From Bacillota bacterium (GTDB taxonomy: Bacteria; Bacillota; Dethiobacteria; Dethiobacterales; Dethiobacteraceae), in the NCBI GenBank assembly GCA_012523945.1, contig JAAYSO010000031.1, positions 1-54,594 on the forward strand: a stretch of DNA of 54,594 nt, given 5' to 3'. Below the pieces are notes generated by a model. The model had not been told where the DNA came from and made no database searches. It worked only from the letters and a program-made list of their open reading frames with translations. Shown here piece after piece: positions 383 through 22,040 of this stretch (the stretch's first letter is position 1; every line of letters starts with the position of its first letter). Position numbers and translations under genes: made by a program.

Positions 383-426
383 TTCACAAGAACTCCACAA
401 TCTTTCCATAAGTTCTCCAAAAACTT
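383..426 (+). repeat. Four tandem 11-bp operator-like repeats
   Basis: Four consecutive 11-base units begin at 383, 394, 405 and 416, with heads TTCACAA, TCCACAA, TCCATAA and TCCAAAA. A -10 hexamer TATGCT (431-436) begins four bases after the last unit, and no good -35 is visible. Direct repeats with one-helical-turn spacing are the usual binding pattern of OmpR/PhoB-type response regulators, and such a regulator is encoded at 959. The same arrangement recurs at 10822-10875. Confidence 0.65.
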
Positions 427-430
427 GTGG

Positions 431-436
431 TATGCT
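431..436 (+). promoter_or_regulatory. -10 box of activator-dependent promoter (DUF2680 gene)
   Basis: TATGCT is placed exactly four bases downstream of the fourth 11-bp repeat, where the repeats replace a recognisable -35. Transcription would start near 443, which leaves a leader of about 27 bases before the GTG at 470. Confidence 0.5.
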
Positions 437-469: not shown

Positions 470-856
470 GTGAAGAAAAATTTAATTATTGCTATGGTGG
501 TAGTTTTAATTTGTGCCCTTTCAGTGCCGGTGGCTTTTGCTTTAACTGATACACAAAAAGATGAATTATTCAATCTTTATCGGCAGCAACATGAGCTGCG
601 CCTGCAAATTGTGGAAAAGCAGCAGGAGGCAGGTCTGATTTCAGATGAAGCTGCCGGGGAACTAAAAGAACGTTTTACTGAAAATTGGCAGTATCATCAG
701 GAGCGGATGAACCAAGGAGATTATGGCTACTGCCCGGGTTTAGGCTACGGCGGTCGGGGGCGGTTTAGAGGACGAAGAGGTGCTTATGGTAATTGTCCTT
801 ACAAGTATGATGCCGCGCAGCGGTGGGAGTCGAGAGGAGCACTGGAAAAATTTTAA
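470..856 (+). CDS. Secreted DUF2680 (YckD-like) protein
   Basis: 128 residues starting at GTG 470, eight bases after an AAAGGTG ribosome binding site; the upstream TTG at 425 lies inside the operator repeats and is not used. Residues 1-23 form a signal peptide (KK, a long hydrophobic core, then AFA). The mature N-terminal part, about residues 24-75, is a charged helical segment with the LTDTQKDEL..LY..Q.ELR..I pattern of DUF2680 proteins. The C-terminal third is rich in Gly, Arg and Tyr and has two Cys. The protein acts outside the membrane; its function is unknown. A terminator follows, then the two-component genes, so this may be an output or sensor accessory of that system. Confidence 0.7.
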   Translation: MKKNLIIAMVVVLICALSVPVAFALTDTQKDELFNLYRQQHELRLQIVEKQQEAGLISDEAAGELKERFTENWQYHQERMNQGDYGYCPGLGYGGRGRFRGRRGAYGNCPYKYDAAQRWESRGALEKF

Positions 857-958: not shown

Positions 959-1651
959 GTGGAAAAAATTTTAGTTGTAGATGATGAAGAAAAAATTGCG
1001 CATGTTATTTGTGCTTATTTGGAAAAGGAAGGTTTTGCCGTTACTCCAGCCTATGACGGCAATAAAGCTTTGGAACTGGCACAAAGCGGGGAGTTCTCGC
1101 TCATGGTACTGGATTTAATGCTGCCCGGGATTTCGGGCGAAGAAGTGACGAAACGTTTGCGCCGTGAAGGTAATAATATTCCCATTATTATGCTAACGGC
1201 CAAAGGTGCGGAGGAAGAGCGCATTAGCGGGTTAGGCCTTGGTGCCGATGATTATGTTGTCAAGCCTTTCAGCCCGGGTGAACTGGTGGCCCGTGTGCTC
1301 GCCGTCTTGCGCCGTGCCCGTAAATCGGGGGGTGTATTGGCTGATGTGCTGGAATTTAAAAATTTGCAGATAGATCTGCGGCGCCGTGAAGTAAAAAGCG
1401 GCGACCAGCTGTTAGAACTGACAGCCACTGAATATAAACTGTTAGTGACCATGGCTAAAAACCCGGGGCGTGTCTTTACCAGGGCTGAACTTTTGGATCT
1501 GGCTTTAGGGGAGCAGGCCACCGGGTATGACCGCACCATTGACAGTCATATCAAAAATTTACGGCAAAAGTTAACACCGGTGGCAGGCGGAAACCGGCTC
1601 ATCCGTACAGTGTACGGTGTGGGCTATAAATTTGAGGATGACGAAAAATGA
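959..1651 (+). CDS. OmpR/PhoB-family response regulator
   Basis: 230 residues from GTG 959, chosen because the GAGGTG at 947-952 is correctly spaced for it and because family members begin with a charged residue followed by ILVVDDE; GTG 950 and ATG 953 are also in frame. The receiver domain spans about residues 1-118, with acidic residues D8/D9, phosphoacceptor D52 (LVLDLMLP) and the conserved Lys in KPF. The C-terminal winged helix (about 130-228) carries the family pattern ELTATEYKLL and ends with TVYGVGYKF. The protein is a cytoplasmic DNA-binding regulator phosphorylated by the overlapping histidine kinase. It is the natural candidate to bind the 11-bp direct repeats at 383-426 and 10822-10865. 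Confidence 0.95.
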   Translation: MEKILVVDDEEKIAHVICAYLEKEGFAVTPAYDGNKALELAQSGEFSLMVLDLMLPGISGEEVTKRLRREGNNIPIIMLTAKGAEEERISGLGLGADDYVVKPFSPGELVARVLAVLRRARKSGGVLADVLEFKNLQIDLRRREVKSGDQLLELTATEYKLLVTMAKNPGRVFTRAELLDLALGEQATGYDRTIDSHIKNLRQKLTPVAGGNRLIRTVYGVGYKFEDDEK

Positions 1652-3060
1652 AGTTTGGGCTGGCAAAAAAAATATCCTTGGCGACAGTTTCTTTAGCCGT
1701 TGGCGGTATAATTCTCTCTGCGCTCTTTACCAATTTGGCCTTAACCTGGAACTTTAATCGTTACCTGGATAGCGTGCAAAAAGAGCAAAACAGATTAATT
1801 ATGGATACACTGACGGAACTTTACAGTGTAAGTACTTCCTGGCGGGAAATACGTTATGCCACCATGTATGTGGGGCTGACCACAGAGGCGCAAATTTGTG
1901 TTTATGATTTAGAGGGGCGTTTAATTGCTGATTCTTTGCCGGGTATGATGCAGGGCAGGCACGGCCGGCATTGGCGACAAAGCCAACAGGACCGTGACCA
2001 TACCTATGTTTACTCTCTGTATGCCAATGGGAGCCCCATCGGTACGGTGGAAATAACGCCCCTGAACCGGCAGGACGGTTGGACGGCGGAAGCTTTGGTC
2101 TTTCGCCGGACAGTACAGATTAGTGCTATCATAACCGGCCTTGTGGCCGTGCTGGCCTCAGCCCTGGTGGGTAGTTTTTTAGCTCGCCGTCTTACTGGTC
2201 GTTTACAGTTGTTGACGCAGGCTGCAGAAAAATGGGGGCAGGAACGTTTTGATACGCGTGTACACTTAAGCGGTGATGATGAGCTGGTTGTCTTGGGTAA
2301 AGCCATGAACCGCATGGCTTCTCAACTGGAGGAGCAAAGTGCCCTGCGTAAAAAGCTGACAGGGGATATTTCCCATGAATTGAGGACCCCCATTACCACC
2401 ATGCAAAGTTATTTGGAAGCTTTTCGAGACGGGGTACTGCCTTTGGATCAGCAAAATATTGAAGCCGTTTTGGAGGAAACAAAACGGCTGGGCAGCTTGG
2501 TTAACGATTTACAGTCCCTGACCAAAGCCGATCTTAGCAGTCGGGAAGTACAGCTGGCACCTTTAGATGTGACTGTTTTTCTTGCGGAAAAAGCAAAATA
2601 CTACCTGCCGCTACTGCAACAACAAGGAATAAATCTAACAACTTCTTTGCCGGAAAAAAATCTTTTGATTGAGGCTGATGAAAAACTGCTGGAACAAGTT
2701 TTAAGCAATTTAGTCAATAATGCCGCCAAGTACACGCCTCAAGGCGGGCAGGTAACTATTGCCGCCCGGGAGGAAAAAGGACAAGTTATCATCGCTGTAA
2801 CCGATACCGGTATTGGCATAGAAGCGGAACATTTGCCTTATATTTTTGAACGTTTTTACCGGGTTGACCCTTCGCGTACACGGTCTACCGGTGGTTCCGG
2901 AATCGGTCTTGCCCTTGTCAAGGAATTGGTGGAGACCATGGGCGGGCGTGTGGAAGCTACCAGTGTCCCGGGCAAGGGCAGTAGTTTCCGCTTATACTTC
3001 CCGTTAGGGGATTATATTAACCCTGATTCACCTTCTTTCCCAACCGGTGGGAGTTGTTAG
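1648..3060 (+). CDS. Membrane sensor histidine kinase
   Basis: 470 residues; the ATG overlaps the regulator's stop (ATGA), indicating translational coupling. Transmembrane segments lie near residues 10-32 and 155-178 and bracket an extracytoplasmic sensor region of about 120 residues. HAMP follows at about 180-232. The HisKA domain has SHELRTPI with phosphorylated H243. The ATPase domain (about 345-455) has an N box NLVNNAAKY, a G1 box DTGIGI, an F box YIFERFYR and a G2 box GGSGIGLAL. It autophosphorylates and passes phosphate to the preceding regulator. The sensed signal cannot be read from sequence. The gene ends in TAG; no terminator is visible before selA, which has its own promoter. Confidence 0.95.
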   Translation: MKFGLAKKISLATVSLAVGGIILSALFTNLALTWNFNRYLDSVQKEQNRLIMDTLTELYSVSTSWREIRYATMYVGLTTEAQICVYDLEGRLIADSLPGMMQGRHGRHWRQSQQDRDHTYVYSLYANGSPIGTVEITPLNRQDGWTAEALVFRRTVQISAIITGLVAVLASALVGSFLARRLTGRLQLLTQAAEKWGQERFDTRVHLSGDDELVVLGKAMNRMASQLEEQSALRKKLTGDISHELRTPITTMQSYLEAFRDGVLPLDQQNIEAVLEETKRLGSLVNDLQSLTKADLSSREVQLAPLDVTVFLAEKAKYYLPLLQQQGINLTTSLPEKNLLIEADEKLLEQVLSNLVNNAAKYTPQGGQVTIAAREEKGQVIIAVTDTGIGIEAEHLPYIFERFYRVDPSRTRSTGGSGIGLALVKELVETMGGRVEATSVPGKGSSFRLYFPLGDYINPDSPSFPTGGSC

Positions 3061-10821: not shown

Positions 10822-10865
10822 TTCAAACTTTGGTCACAATCTGTTCACTTTTTTTCCACAGGCAA
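10822..10865 (+). repeat. Four tandem 11-bp operator-like repeats before the ccm operon
   Basis: Units begin at 10822, 10833, 10844 and 10855, with heads TTCAAAC, GTCACAA, TTCACTT and TCCACAG. The last unit ends four bases before a -10 hexamer TATACT (10870-10875). Number of units, 11-base period and four-base gap are the same as at 383-436, so both promoters are probably activated by the same response regulator. Confidence 0.6.
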
Positions 10866-10869
10866 ATGG

Positions 10870-10875
10870 TATACT
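10870..10875 (+). promoter_or_regulatory. -10 box of ccm/res operon promoter
   Basis: TATACT in the context ATGG-TATACT-TGATG, 46 bases before the ccmA start. There is no convincing -35; the 11-bp repeats occupy its place. Confidence 0.5.
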
Positions 10876-10921
10876 TGATGATAGAAAAATATCCCTCTTC
10901 AGGGAAAAGGGACTGTAGTTT

Positions 10922-11563
10922 ATGCTGACCCAAGTTAAAGTTCACAACTTAACTAAAGCCTACCGGCACCGCCTGCTTTTTCGCAATCTGTCCTTCATCA
11001 TTCCCGATCAGTCGGTTTTTGTGCTCTTGGGCCGTAACGGAGCAGGTAAAACCACATTTTTGCGGATTTTATGCGGGTTGGTTCCGGCTTCCGCCGGTCA
11101 GGTTGAAATTACAGTGGACGGGAAAATCTTAATGCCGCAAGAAAAACGCACTCACCTGGGTTTGGTTGCCCCTGATCTGGAACTGTATGGGGAGCTGTCG
11201 GCGGTGGAGAATCTGGAATTTTTTGCAGGGGTACGCGGTATCCCTTTTTCTTTGACAAAGGCGCGCGATCTATTAGATTTTGTCGGTTTAAGGGGGCGCG
11301 GACATGATTTAGTGCATACATATTCTTCCGGCATGAAACAGCGGCTCAAATATGCTTATGCACTCTTACATGAGCCGAAAATACTTGTTTTGGACGAGCC
11401 CACAACCAATCTGGATGAGGACGGCGTACAGCTGGTGGATTCGATAATTGAACGGCAACGCCGGCGAGGGATTGTGATAATGGCCACAAATGAGCCGCGG
11501 GAGGTGTCATATGGTGATCAGACGCTTTCCCTGGATACGGCAGAGTCTGGTAATCTGGCATAA
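10922..11563 (+). CDS. ccmA: Heme exporter ATPase CcmA
   Basis: 213 residues, a single ABC ATPase domain: Walker A GRNGAGKTT near residue 40, signature YSSGMKQRLKYA, Walker B ILVLDEPTTNLD and the switch region ATNEPRE. CcmA drives release of holo-CcmE from the CcmC complex in System I cytochrome c maturation. It is the first gene of a seven-gene run on the plus strand and overlaps ccmB by 53 bases. Confidence 0.88.
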   Translation: MLTQVKVHNLTKAYRHRLLFRNLSFIIPDQSVFVLLGRNGAGKTTFLRILCGLVPASAGQVEITVDGKILMPQEKRTHLGLVAPDLELYGELSAVENLEFFAGVRGIPFSLTKARDLLDFVGLRGRGHDLVHTYSSGMKQRLKYAYALLHEPKILVLDEPTTNLDEDGVQLVDSIIERQRRRGIVIMATNEPREVSYGDQTLSLDTAESGNLA

Positions 11564-12194
11564 AGAGCTGCGGATTGAATTTCGCACGCGTTTCGCTTAC
11601 AGCACTTTATTAATGTTTGCCGTGACCACACTTATCACCATTAGTTTTTCTGTGGGCGGTTTTGTGCCGGACAGTGATATCACAGCGGCGCTTTTGTGGA
11701 TTATTCTCTTTTTTTCCGCCATGGCCGGCCTGGGCCGTACCTTTGTGCAGGAGGAAGAGAAGAAAACCATCACGGCGCTGAAGATGGCTGTAGCTCCAGA
11801 ACCGGTGTTTTTGGGGAAATACTTTTTTAATGTGACGCTTTTATGCAGTTTGACCGTGCTGGTGGTGCCGTTGTTTTTAGTGTTACTTAACCAGAGTGTG
11901 CCGCTGTGGGCGCCTTTTTTGACCACAGTATTTTTAGGTGCACTTGGTTTAGCCGGTGCCAGTACCATTATTGCCGCCATTGTGGCGAAAACAGAAGCGA
12001 AAAGTGCCATGATGACAATTTTGGCTTTCCCGGTGCTGGTGCCTTTGTTGCTGGCTACCATTAACGCCACCAGGATTTGTCTGGCCGGGGCGCCGGGCAC
12101 GGCCCCCACAACAGAGCTTTTATTATTGTTATTTTATAACGGGGCGGTAGTGACGGCATCGCTACTGTTATTTGAGTATATCTGGAATGAATAA
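11511..12194 (+). CDS. ccmB: Heme exporter membrane subunit CcmB
   Basis: 227 residues from ATG 11511, ten bases after GGGAGG; the open frame reaches upstream to 11490 but without a ribosome binding site. Six membrane segments are visible after an N-terminal cytoplasmic stretch (WHKELRIEFRTR), a typical CcmB beginning. QEEEKKTITALKMAVAPEP is the conserved cytoplasmic loop that touches the ATPase. It forms CcmA2B with the preceding protein. Confidence 0.88.
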   Translation: MVIRRFPWIRQSLVIWHKELRIEFRTRFAYSTLLMFAVTTLITISFSVGGFVPDSDITAALLWIILFFSAMAGLGRTFVQEEEKKTITALKMAVAPEPVFLGKYFFNVTLLCSLTVLVVPLFLVLLNQSVPLWAPFLTTVFLGALGLAGASTIIAAIVAKTEAKSAMMTILAFPVLVPLLLATINATRICLAGAPGTAPTTELLLLLFYNGAVVTASLLLFEYIWNE

Positions 12195-12218
12195 GCTGAT
12201 GTAAAAGGGGAGAAAAAT

Positions 12219-12878
12219 GTGTTTTGGCAAAGTATCCTGGGAATTTGGTTGACACTCGTCATTCTTGCTTCATTTCTCTATATGCCGGCCACACAGGGTT
12301 TGGGCGAGTCGGGACGGATTATTATTTACCATGTTCCTGCCGCCTGGGTTGCCGTGTTGGCCTACCTGATGGCCATGGTTAATTCTCTGAATTATTTGCG
12401 CCGGAAAGATTTGCGTTTTGACCGTCAAGCGCAGATAAATGCCGAACTGGGTACAGTTTTTTGTGTGCTGGCCACCATTACAGGTGCTATCTGGAGTCGC
12501 GGCGCCTGGGGCTGGTACTGGAACTGGGATCCGCGCCAGACATCCATTGCCGTTTTATTAATGATTTATGCTGCTTATTTTGTTTTGCGCGGTACAGTTG
12601 AGGACCCGGAGAGAAGGGCAAACCTGGCGGCGGTTTATGCACTTTTTGCTTTTTTGACGGTGCCCTTTTTAGTTTTTATTGTGCCGCGTATTTATGATTC
12701 ATTACATCCTGATTTGATTAACATGGAAAAACGCACCTTTGACATGGACAAAAAAATGTTGGTGGTTTTTTTAGCCTCATTAGCCGGGTTTACCGGTCTT
12801 TATGGCTGGCTGTACAATATTCGCCTCCGTGTGGAGAACTTACTCCACAGGCTGGAAGGCAAAAAGGAGGTAATTTAA
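12219..12878 (+). CDS. ccmC: Heme-handling protein CcmC
   Basis: 219 residues from GTG 12219 (AAAAGGGGAGA upstream). About six membrane segments surround the tryptophan-rich heme loop (WWD domain) WGWYWNWDPRQTS near residues 95-107, flanked by external His residues (YHVPAAW). CcmC places heme on CcmE. The stop codon is immediately followed by the ccmD start. Confidence 0.9.
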   Translation: MFWQSILGIWLTLVILASFLYMPATQGLGESGRIIIYHVPAAWVAVLAYLMAMVNSLNYLRRKDLRFDRQAQINAELGTVFCVLATITGAIWSRGAWGWYWNWDPRQTSIAVLLMIYAAYFVLRGTVEDPERRANLAAVYALFAFLTVPFLVFIVPRIYDSLHPDLINMEKRTFDMDKKMLVVFLASLAGFTGLYGWLYNIRLRVENLLHRLEGKKEVI

Positions 12879-12998
12879 GTGGGAGGCTTAAATTTTGTCT
12901 TGGCTGTGACGCTCGTTACCTGGATCGGCCTGTTTTTATATATTTTGCGGGTGGATTTAAAAGTCAGGGAGGCCGAGCGGCGTGAAAAGATACGATAA
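12879..12998 (+). CDS. ccmD: CcmD-like small membrane protein
   Basis: 39 residues, starting at GTG directly after the ccmC stop, with the ribosome binding site AAAAAGGAGG inside the end of ccmC. One membrane helix (about residues 4-24) is followed by a basic, charged tail (RVDLKVREAERREKIR). Size, topology, position between ccmC and ccmE and 17-base overlap with ccmE all fit CcmD, which stabilises the CcmC-CcmE complex. It is easily missed because of its length. Confidence 0.75.
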   Translation: MGGLNFVLAVTLVTWIGLFLYILRVDLKVREAERREKIR

Positions 12999-13371
12999 AA
13001 TCATTCTCTTTGCTTTACTGGTTGCTTTTGCTTTCGGTATTTTTATTACTGCCCGCAGTGCCATGAGTACTTATGTAACTTTTGCCCAAGCCAAAGAATC
13101 CGGCCGCAGTGTGCAGGTAAAAGGTCTTGCCCTGGAGGGAACGCTGGAGGGGCTGGAGGCGGAAAAATATGCTTTTCACATGCAGGATGATGCCGGAGAG
13201 ATTGTGCGCGTTGTGGCTCAAGGCAATCAGCCGGTTAATCTTTTTGAAGCCGACAGCGTGGTGGTGAAAGGAAAATATAACGGCAGTGAGTTTGAGGCTC
13301 AAACTATTCTGGTGAAATGTCCCTCTAAATACGAGGCGGAGGAGCATCCTGAAGAAATTAGAAAAGAATAG
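12982..13371 (+). CDS. ccmE: Cysteine-type heme chaperone CcmE
   Basis: 129 residues from GTG 12982. An N-terminal membrane anchor (about residues 6-26) precedes an OB-fold domain (QVKGLALEG...FHMQDDAGEIVRVVAQG). Classical CcmE binds heme covalently through His in an HxxxY motif; here the corresponding place reads C113-P-S-K-Y117. This CxxxY form is known from Desulfovibrio and some archaea (System I variant). The gene lies between ccmD and resB. Confidence 0.85.
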   Translation: MKRYDKIILFALLVAFAFGIFITARSAMSTYVTFAQAKESGRSVQVKGLALEGTLEGLEAEKYAFHMQDDAGEIVRVVAQGNQPVNLFEADSVVVKGKYNGSEFEAQTILVKCPSKYEAEEHPEEIRKE

Positions 13372-13394
13372 TGTAAAGCGAAGGAGGGATTCTT

Positions 13395-14723
13395 TTGCAC
13401 AAGGAAAAGCCGGAGTTGTCTTTTAAGGAGCTCTTTACCGCCAAGCCGGTGAGGCAAATCCTGAAGTTTTTAAGTTCAATGCAATTAGGCATTATTTTAC
13501 TGCTCTTACTTGCTGTCATTTCCGTCTTGGCCACATTACGGGAACATAATACGGCTATCCAGTCAATATACCGTTCTTGGTGGTATCTTGGCATTATGGC
13601 TTTTACTGCTTTAAACCTGCTTCTGTGTACCGTCAGAAGAGTTAAACCGCTCACAAGGCAAGCTTTATACCCGCAAAAAGAACAGTCGGCAGAAGCCATT
13701 GCCAGGATGCCTGTCAAGGAGAAAGTTGTTTTGGCAGAAAACTTACCGGCAGAAAAAGTTTTAGCCCTGGTGGCGGATGCTTTCCATCGCAGTGGCTTAA
13801 AGACGGAAATTACCACAGGTACCCACGGCAAAACAGTTTTTGCCCAAAAAGGTGTTTTAGGGTTTTTTGGTTCCTTACTTTCGCATACGGGCTTGTTAAT
13901 TATTCTCGTGGGAGCCATGTACGGTGCTCTGACCGGTTTTGAACTGCAAGGCGGCGGCATTGCGGGGGATCGTATTTCCGTGCCGGACGGTAATTTTGCT
14001 GTCCGGATTATGGATGTGTGGATGGAATACGAGGAAGATCCTACTGTACGGCCGCGTGTTTATAGTGATGTCTCGGTGACGGAAGGCGGCAGGGAAATTG
14101 CCGACGGCGTGATTGCCATTAACCAGCCTTTGCGTTTTGCCGGCAACACAATTTATCACACAACTTTTCGTTATGTTTCTGATGTAATAATGCACAACGT
14201 CTCAACCGGTGAAACAAGTATGCACCGGGTCTGGGACAGGGATCATTTAGGTTTAGACAGTAAAGGACTTCATATTCACTTTTTAGCTTTTTTCCCTAAT
14301 TTCGCCACTAATGAAGAAGGTGTGCCGTATTCAAAAAATTATTTGCCGGAGAATCCGGTTTTGGCAGGCATCGTGTATGATGAAAAGGAAAAACCCCAGT
14401 CTCATGTTTATCTGTATCTAAACGATCCGGTTACTTTTTCTACAGCTGACGGTGAAATCGAAGTAACTTTGACAGGTTTTCAAAATGCAGTTGTTTATAC
14501 TATTACCCGCAATCTGGGGCGCCCCATCCTTGTTACCGGTGCTTTGATGTTTGTACTGGGCTTATATTTAAGCTTTTTTCTGCATCCACGCCGCTTCTGG
14601 GCGCTTTATGACCAGGAGCAGGCGGCTGTGCTGATAGGGGGGCGGAGTTACCGCAGCCGTTTAATGCTTGAGCAGGAGCTGGAACAGGTGGTAAAAGAAA
14701 TTACGCGCAGAGAGGACGAATAG
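13395..14723 (+). CDS. resB: Cytochrome c synthase subunit ResB/CcsB (Ccs1)
   Basis: 442 residues from TTG 13395, six bases after AAGGAGGGA. Three membrane segments near the N-terminus (about 35-55, 75-95 and 165-185) are followed by a large extracytoplasmic domain and a fourth segment near 375-395 before a cytoplasmic tail. FLSSMQLGIILLLLLAVISVLATL is the ResB family start. In System II, ResB and CcsA together move heme and attach it to CxxCH of apocytochromes. Its stop is one base from ccsA. Confidence 0.9.
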   Translation: MHKEKPELSFKELFTAKPVRQILKFLSSMQLGIILLLLLAVISVLATLREHNTAIQSIYRSWWYLGIMAFTALNLLLCTVRRVKPLTRQALYPQKEQSAEAIARMPVKEKVVLAENLPAEKVLALVADAFHRSGLKTEITTGTHGKTVFAQKGVLGFFGSLLSHTGLLIILVGAMYGALTGFELQGGGIAGDRISVPDGNFAVRIMDVWMEYEEDPTVRPRVYSDVSVTEGGREIADGVIAINQPLRFAGNTIYHTTFRYVSDVIMHNVSTGETSMHRVWDRDHLGLDSKGLHIHFLAFFPNFATNEEGVPYSKNYLPENPVLAGIVYDEKEKPQSHVYLYLNDPVTFSTADGEIEVTLTGFQNAVVYTITRNLGRPILVTGALMFVLGLYLSFFLHPRRFWALYDQEQAAVLIGGRSYRSRLMLEQELEQVVKEITRREDE

Positions 14724-14724
14724 T

Positions 14725-15597
14725 ATGACCGGTTATTTAGAAGTCTCCCCGCTGGGGTTGGCAGTGGAAAATATCTTGTTTACCATAGCAGCCGTGGCCT
14801 ATCTTTTGTCTACGGCAGGTTATTTATTTTATATATTTGGCAAGAAAAAACTTGGGCCTTGGGCGTCCTATCTTTTGCGTTTTAGCTTTTTACTGCATAC
14901 TGCATTTCTGGTGACACGCACCATTAATGCCGGCAGAATCCCCCTGGTAGGCCATTTCGAGTTTGGTAATGTATTTATCTGGGCTTGTGTCCTTTTTTAC
15001 CTATGGCTGGAATGGCGCCTGCAAGGTAGGGATTACAGTGTCGGTGCCTTCTTAACACCGCTGGTTGTGCTTTACCTGGCTTACCTTACCGTGGCACCTC
15101 ATTTGATAACGAAAATAAACATTAGCCGTGCCCATAAACCTTTGCAACCTGTTTTGCAGTCTAACTGGCTGCAAATCCATGTCAGTGCGTCTGTGCTGGG
15201 TTATGCCTGTTTTACCCTGGCTTTTGCCGTGGCAATAATGTGGCTTTTAAAAACTTGGCTTCACAATAAAGCATTTGCCCGGAATTTGCCTGAACCGCTA
15301 ATTTTGGAGGAGTATATGTACCGTGCCTCCGGTATAGGATTTTTGTTTCAAAGCATTATGATTATCACAGGGGCAATTTGGGCTGACACCTCCTGGGGAC
15401 GTTACTGGGGTTGGGACCCTAAAGAGGTATGGGCGCTCATTACCTGGTTTGTCTTTGCCGTTTACTTACATGCCCGTTTTACCCGCGGCTGGAGGGGAAT
15501 GCGCACAGTCATGCTGGTAATTGTGGGCTGGGTTGCCATGGTCTTTACCTGGGTAGGTGTAGCCTGGCTTTTAACAGGCATTCATTCTTTTGGTTAG
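14725..15597 (+). CDS. resC: Cytochrome c synthase subunit CcsA/ResC
   Basis: 290 residues with about eight membrane segments and the WWD heme motif WGRYWGWDPKEVWALITWF near residue 230; conserved His residues flank it (LQIHVSASVLGY, YLHARFTRGW). It completes the ResBC synthase. It is the last gene of the cytochrome c cluster, which has no ccmF, ccmG or ccmH. A bidirectional terminator follows. Confidence 0.92.
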   Translation: MTGYLEVSPLGLAVENILFTIAAVAYLLSTAGYLFYIFGKKKLGPWASYLLRFSFLLHTAFLVTRTINAGRIPLVGHFEFGNVFIWACVLFYLWLEWRLQGRDYSVGAFLTPLVVLYLAYLTVAPHLITKINISRAHKPLQPVLQSNWLQIHVSASVLGYACFTLAFAVAIMWLLKTWLHNKAFARNLPEPLILEEYMYRASGIGFLFQSIMIITGAIWADTSWGRYWGWDPKEVWALITWFVFAVYLHARFTRGWRGMRTVMLVIVGWVAMVFTWVGVAWLLTGIHSFG

Positions 15598-17702: not shown

Positions 17703-17732
17703 CGTTGCAAAATATGAGAACCTCACCTTGGG

Positions 17733-17915
17733 GTGAGGTAGAGGCGCGGTGAGTCATGAGTAGTACTTGTGAGAGTGGGGAACTCTGTGAGCAGGTATGA
17801 AAGGGGACACCGCCGAAGCTCTATGTTTCCCCGGGCATGGAGCTGGGCCGGCAGTGAATAACTGTCGGACTGTCACCAAATGCTGTCCCTTGGCATTGGT
17901 GGAGAGCTATCTCAC
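17733..17915 (+). ncRNA. Lysine riboswitch (L box) aptamer
   Basis: The leader contains the conserved L-box elements AGGTAGAGGCGC near 17736 and CGCCGAAGC near 17812. P1 is formed by GTGAGGTAG (17733-17741) with CTATCTCAC (17907-17915). It lies between a strong promoter and lysA, with an intrinsic terminator after the aptamer. Lysine binding is expected to stop transcription of lysA-asd-lysC. Confidence 0.93.
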
Positions 17916-17944
17916 GTAAGGGTTTGAATTGGTACGTGATTGAT

Positions 17945-21768: not shown

Positions 21769-22040
21769 AAAACTTTTGCTAAATGCCATGACAGGGACAT
21801 AGTAGGCATAGTCAGGGATTACAGAGAGCCGGTGGTGGCTGTGAACCGGTATCCGGTCTATGTTGAAATTACCCCCTTGAGCAGCGGGCTGAAAATTTAG
21901 TAGGCTGCGCCGGGAACCCGCCGTTAAAAGGGTAAGGGCATAACCCGAATTGGGCGTGCCTGTAAAGTGGACTACATCAGTCAAATTGGGTGGTACCGCG
22001 GAGATAATTCCGTCCCTTTCGAGGGACGGTTTTTATTTTA
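21769..22040 (+). ncRNA. T-box leader with terminator, upstream of aroF-tyrA-aroA
   Basis: The leader has the stem I element AGAGAGCCGG followed by its complement CCGG, and the near-invariant T-box sequence AATTGGGTGGTACCGCG at 21984-22000. The terminator is CCGTCCC TTTCGA GGGACGG (22010-22029) with a T-run. The UGGU bulge should pair with an NCCA end whose discriminator base is A, which fits tRNA-Tyr or tRNA-Phe and argues against tRNA-Trp. Specifier candidates are TAT (in GGTCTATGTT) or TAC (in AAATTACCCCC), both Tyr; ATT is also possible by sequence. Uncharged tRNA should allow read-through. Confidence 0.92.

Follow-up and report, generated by a model that had tools for sequence, protein, structure and literature searches.

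The promoters at 383-436 and 10822-10875

Two promoters in a stretch of 54,594 nucleotides from a Bacillota genome of the Dethiobacteraceae (contig JAAYSO010000031.1, referred to here as the window) lie about 10 kb apart and share a layout in which tandem 11-bp units run up to a -10 box. One precedes an operon for a secreted DUF2680 protein, a response regulator and a sensor histidine kinase (the DUF2680-RR-HK operon), and the other precedes the cytochrome c maturation (ccm) genes, which raises the question of whether the regulator encoded at position 959 (regulator 959) works both, as an earlier note on this DNA had proposed. The reading favoured here, drawn from sequence comparison, is that the site at 383-436 is probably the control region, operator plus promoter, through which the DUF2680-RR-HK operon regulates itself, and that the ccm site is a separate one, most likely served by another OmpR-family regulator. 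The features concerned are collected in Table 1; elsewhere the window carries a lysine riboswitch at 17731-17917 and a T-box leader at 21779-22020.

Table 1. Features of the two promoters and of the genes behind them
Feature	Position	Strand	Basis
Operator of the DUF2680-RR-HK operon: four direct repeats of 11 bp, spanning roughly -60 to -17	383..426	+	sequence, conserved footprint
Units of this operator: TTCACAAGAAC TCCACAATCTT TCCATAAGTTC TCCAAAAACTT	383-426	+	sequence
-10 box TATGCT, extended (TGG), predicted start near 443	431..436	+	conserved block
Secreted DUF2680 protein	470..856	+	PF10925, 42.7 bits
OmpR/PhoB-family response regulator	959..1651	+	profile matches; nearest solved structure BaeR
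Sensor histidine kinase (HAMP, HisKA, HATPase_c)	1648..3060	+	best curated model BaeS/SmeS, below cut-off
Units at the ccm site: TTCAAACTTTG GTCACAATCTG TTCACTTTTTT TCCACAGGCAA	10822-10865	+	sequence
Conserved part of the ccm operator: three 11-bp units, spanning roughly -60 to -28	10822..10854	+	kept in 12 family genomes
Apparent fourth ccm unit, non-conserved (34% identity)	10855..10865	+	aligned promoters
-10 box TATACT, extended (TGG), predicted start near 10882	10870..10875	+	conservation
ccmA, ccmB, ccmC, ccmE, resB, ccsB	10922..15597	+	Pfam and NCBIfam matches

The four units are followed by a GTGG spacer and TATGCT at the DUF2680 site and by an ATGG spacer and TATACT at the ccm site, so the sequence confirms the observation that at both loci a run of four 11-bp units stops 4 bp short of the -10 box. 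Both -10 boxes are extended by the TGG that precedes the hexamer, and no -35 element is recognisable at a spacing of 16-18 bp at either promoter. With a tandem 11-bp period placed directly upstream of a -10 box that lacks a -35, both arrays have the form of direct-repeat operators, and both look, as had been suggested, like OmpR/PhoB-type operators that replace the -35 contact. With a weight matrix built from all eight units, the two sites score 44 and 38, values that are partly circular because both sites trained the matrix; the highest score at any unrelated position in the window is 13, and the best of 20 random sequences reaches 19. Searched through the whole genome (2.08 Mb, 96.7% complete, from a Dethiobacter-like family), a degenerate pattern matches only these two sites without mismatch and, with up to three mismatches, gives 9 matches including shifted duplicates versus 2 for the reversed pattern. 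DnaA-box-like matches on contig C150 are apparently replication-origin repeats and were set aside.

The DUF2680 operon and its operator

Looking for the pattern in related genomes had been proposed as a check, and at the DUF2680 site it is indeed kept upstream of orthologous operons. The array before these DUF2680-RR-HK operons reads TCCACAAnATC TCCACATTTTC TCCATmAGTTC TnCAmA in the family and stops 4 bp before TATGAT-like boxes. In an alignment of 12 family promoters, the successive units are 76, 77, 77 and 58% identical and the -10 block 71%, compared with only 25-37% in the 66 bp upstream, and at the DUF2680 and ccm promoters alike conservation is limited to the units and the -10 box. In the family, 14 genomes have the regulator, the DUF2680 gene and the array together; the other six lack both regulator and array, among them G004, which has a partial regulator match only, and G002 and G019, which carry a different, weakly matching DUF2680-type gene. 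This co-occurrence of array and two-component system gives a Fisher p of 2.6e-5, with relatedness ignored and the genomes not independent; the genomes are drafts, and the motif matrices include positions kept by descent. G006 and G018 carry an additional copy of the array, placed ahead of a second gene of the DUF2680 type. The joint presence in 14 genomes and joint absence in six support the proposal that regulator 959 acts at the adjoining DUF2680 promoter, and control of its own operon by this regulator is very probable. The array and promoter at 383-436 are real and conserved, and are probably the switch of the adjoining stress-type sensor system.

The DUF2680 protein is predicted to consist of a signal peptide, a helical hairpin and a disordered tail rich in Gly, Tyr and Arg, with a pLDDT above 90 over the hairpin only. 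Sequence and fold searches against solved structures returned no significant match, and by Pfam the window protein matches DUF2680 only and not LTXXQ (Spy/CpxP). Regulator 959 falls below both the curated BaeR cut-off (206 vs 380) and the PhoB equivalog cut-off (226.7 vs 296.2), and the kinase below that of BaeS/SmeS (253 vs 500); nor does the pair pass the curated CpxR/CpxA cut-offs.

The DUF2680-type operator across the Bacillota

The DUF2680-site pattern is matched in 40 of 399 Bacillota genomes, against 2 matches for the reversed control, with the array starting some 80-120 bp before the downstream gene in most cases. When the window gene is counted with 30 other first downstream genes, 18 of the 31 match DUF2680, and two encode LTXXQ/Metal_resist proteins of the Spy/CpxP type (L301, L303). 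HtrA genes lie downstream of similar arrays in other families, in L314 (G474) and, behind a regulator-kinase pair, in L316 (G404), an arrangement that would fit control by secretion stress; at the level of the pattern, none was found behind an array in the window's own genome. Two first genes belong to cytochrome-oxidase operons (L313 in G357, UbiA/CtaB-like; L331 in G286, COX2), and L322 (G100) has a similar array upstream of a gene for a CxxCH protein; the arrays in these three loci are perhaps ResD-type sites. The weak matches L302, L329, L332 and L333 are apparently chance or simple repeats.

A reverse test, preceded by per-locus shuffles, took 68 DUF2680 loci chosen regardless of the motif. 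Only a period of 11 shows an excess of four-fold repetition (mean 24.0 vs 21.5-22.4), and only the register with a 4-bp gap forms a peak, with at least three units in 15 loci compared with 0-2 elsewhere, a 15-bp gap being the 4-bp register displaced by one unit. A regulator gene lies alongside in 13 DUF2680 loci, and the DUF2680-linked members of the regulator tree do not form one clade, most of them falling around the clade of the window and several elsewhere. Some DUF2680 arrays in other Bacillota are GTCACA-like (e.g., L251), and given such arrays the DUF2680-type and ccm-type sites may intergrade.

The ccm promoter

The operon at 10922-15597 combines cytochrome c maturation system I (ccmA, ccmB, ccmC, and ccmE) with system II (resB and ccsB). 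In both members of genus g8, L047 (G014) and L048 (G013), the aligned stretch of ccmB contains one in-frame TAG. The family ccm promoter, compiled from 12 genomes, reads TTCAnnnTTTG GnCACAnAntG TTCACTTTT, followed by non-conserved bases and GGTGGTATAAT. In 9 aligned promoters identity is 68, 68 and 79% over the three units and 34% over the fourth, and the identical unit number reported for the two sites therefore holds in this species and not in its relatives, which retain four units at the DUF2680 promoter but three at that of ccm. No similar array was found upstream of ccmA in sister families of the class, among loci whose sequence included the promoter, and the ccm motif appears to be specific to the family.

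One regulator or two

Matrices of 33 bp built from each set of sites give 19-45 to members of their own set, whereas sites of the other set reach no more than about 5 and fall as low as -26; these cross-scores, together with three units against four, show that the sites lack the shared consensus of a single regulon joining regulator 959 and ccm. Nor is the ccm motif confined to genomes with regulator 959: G009 and G019, each 99% complete, retain the motif although they lack the regulator and its DUF2680 operon, and G003, which has both, does not carry it. The selA-selB-ccm neighbourhood is kept without an adjoining two-component system in G001 and G011. Among the family genomes, those with the regulator carry the ccm motif somewhat more often (Fisher p 0.06-0.21). 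Because the motif is distinct and its presence does not follow that of the regulator in G009, G019 and G003, ccm is not assigned to regulator 959, and the claim that this regulator activates it finds no support.

It is accordingly unlikely that regulator 959 activates both promoters and thereby brings the assembly of cytochrome c into the envelope regulon of DUF2680. Such a link would fit the equal period, equal register and common core of the two sites in this species, the adjacency of loci whose neighbourhood is kept in relatives, and the T-Y-C-A-n-A core common to both motifs, given that one regulator can tolerate diverse sites; it is opposed by the difference in conserved consensus and unit number, by a ccm motif that persists in genomes lacking the regulator and is missing from one that has it, and by the occurrence of the same register phylum-wide. 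Since this register is seen throughout the phylum, it is not specific evidence for one regulator at both sites and is best read as the shared geometry of OmpR-type activation; the contact that this regulator family makes with RNA polymerase appears to set the spacing, and the same operator spacing at two nearby promoters need not, for that reason, mean one regulator. It is scarcely credible that the arrays arose by chance as AT-rich repeats and have no function, short and partly AT-rich as the units are, in the face of footprint conservation, a unique register peak and phylum matches well beyond the reversed control. The single envelope or redox regulon of the earlier note is thus retained in part, an envelope-type regulon around DUF2680 being likely, while the membership of ccm is not supported by motif and co-occurrence. 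The ccm operon is most likely worked by a different OmpR-family regulator.

One candidate for that role is RRx, a PnpRS/PhoPR-like regulator encoded elsewhere in the genome, although its activation of ccm is a doubtful proposition. Of the 12 family genomes that supplied further regulators, 11 have it, G009 and G019 among them; the exception is G001, whose RRx was outside the sequence stretches examined. The RRx kinase passes the PnpS cut-off (409 vs 400). In five family genomes (L416, L421, L424, L414, and L078), the gap between dgt and the PnpS-like kinase gene contains, on the opposite strand, a conserved candidate small RNA about 75-80 nt long that has ccm-like 11-bp units and TATAAT ahead of it, finishes in a hairpin and a T-run, and matches no Rfam family at gathering level. 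Control of ccm by RRx would be comparable to the ties known in Bacillus between phosphate regulation and genes of respiration. The candidate small RNA was, however, not found in the corresponding stretch of the window genome, further universal OmpR-type regulators exist, and the support for a role of RRx at ccm is indirect, so that the weak evidence makes it perhaps a candidate ccm binder and no more. Scanned with the ccm matrix, the regions ahead of the WalR-like regulators L019-L035 gave no convincing array.

Proposed circuit and its meaning

In the autoregulatory circuit favoured here, dimers of phosphorylated regulator 959 would occupy the four direct repeats from about -60 to -17, substitute for the absent -35 and bring RNA polymerase to the extended -10 box. 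Activation would then yield secreted DUF2680 protein together with more of the two-component system, and hence positive autoregulation, while the ccm operator at 10822-10875, with its three conserved units, would serve a different OmpR-family regulator, most likely the activator of the ccm operon. By analogy with Spy/CpxP, the DUF2680 protein may serve as an extracytoplasmic chaperone-like or feedback partner, and the system is best read as an envelope- or secretion-stress circuit similar to BaeSR, CpxRA and CssRS, whose main target would be this secreted protein. A signal of copper or silver instead of misfolded protein, with DUF2680 as a metal-binding partner, is rather unlikely; it would accord with the Metal_resist, SHOCT and DUF2933 proteins behind arrays and with L370, where a His-rich protein similar to a copper-type P-type ATPase (read by eye) adjoins a DUF2680-RR-HK operon, but HtrA and Spy/CpxP-type targets fit envelope stress equally.

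DUF2680 is an uncharacterised family, named among the open-access papers searched in a single one, on toxin-antitoxin systems, and a conserved operator with a linked two-component system gives it a testable role in envelope stress. It is quite possible, if still tentative, that DUF2680 is the defining output of a widespread and undescribed envelope-stress regulon of the Bacillota, as a secreted Spy/CpxP-like helical partner whose strictly phased four-repeat operator is kept across distant families while the adjoining regulator gene is sometimes lost or replaced. The operator motif can be used to find the DUF2680 regulon in many Bacillota.

Comparison with known systems

The spy gene belongs to the BaeR regulon, cpxP and degP to that of CpxR. 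The DUF2680 system resembles these circuits in that its regulator is nearest to BaeR among solved structures and its kinase nearest to BaeS/SmeS, that a small secreted helical protein is the conserved target, and that LTXXQ proteins stand behind the same array in L301 and L303. It differs in that BaeSR and CpxRA are Gram-negative systems whereas this one occurs in Bacillota, that the window regulator and kinase fall below the BaeR and BaeS cut-offs, and that DUF2680 is not LTXXQ.

Likeness to PhoP/PhoB lies in the operator, a tandem array of 11-nt direct repeats at the promoter, and the ccm-type units are presumably closer to PhoP/PhoB operator units than those of the DUF2680 site are. The DUF2680-site consensus is unlike that of PhoP/PhoB, phosphate genes are not linked to it, and regulator 959 is below the PhoB cut-off. 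Streptomyces PhoP protects sets of four 11-nt direct repeat units (PMC7866108).

The comparison with CssRS-HtrA of Bacillus subtilis concerns box and targets; the target in the window is DUF2680 and not HtrA. HtrA genes stand behind similar arrays in L314 and L316, and the CssR box, TTTTCACA (PMC6749698), resembles the DUF2680-site unit in a shifted phase, TCTTCACA.
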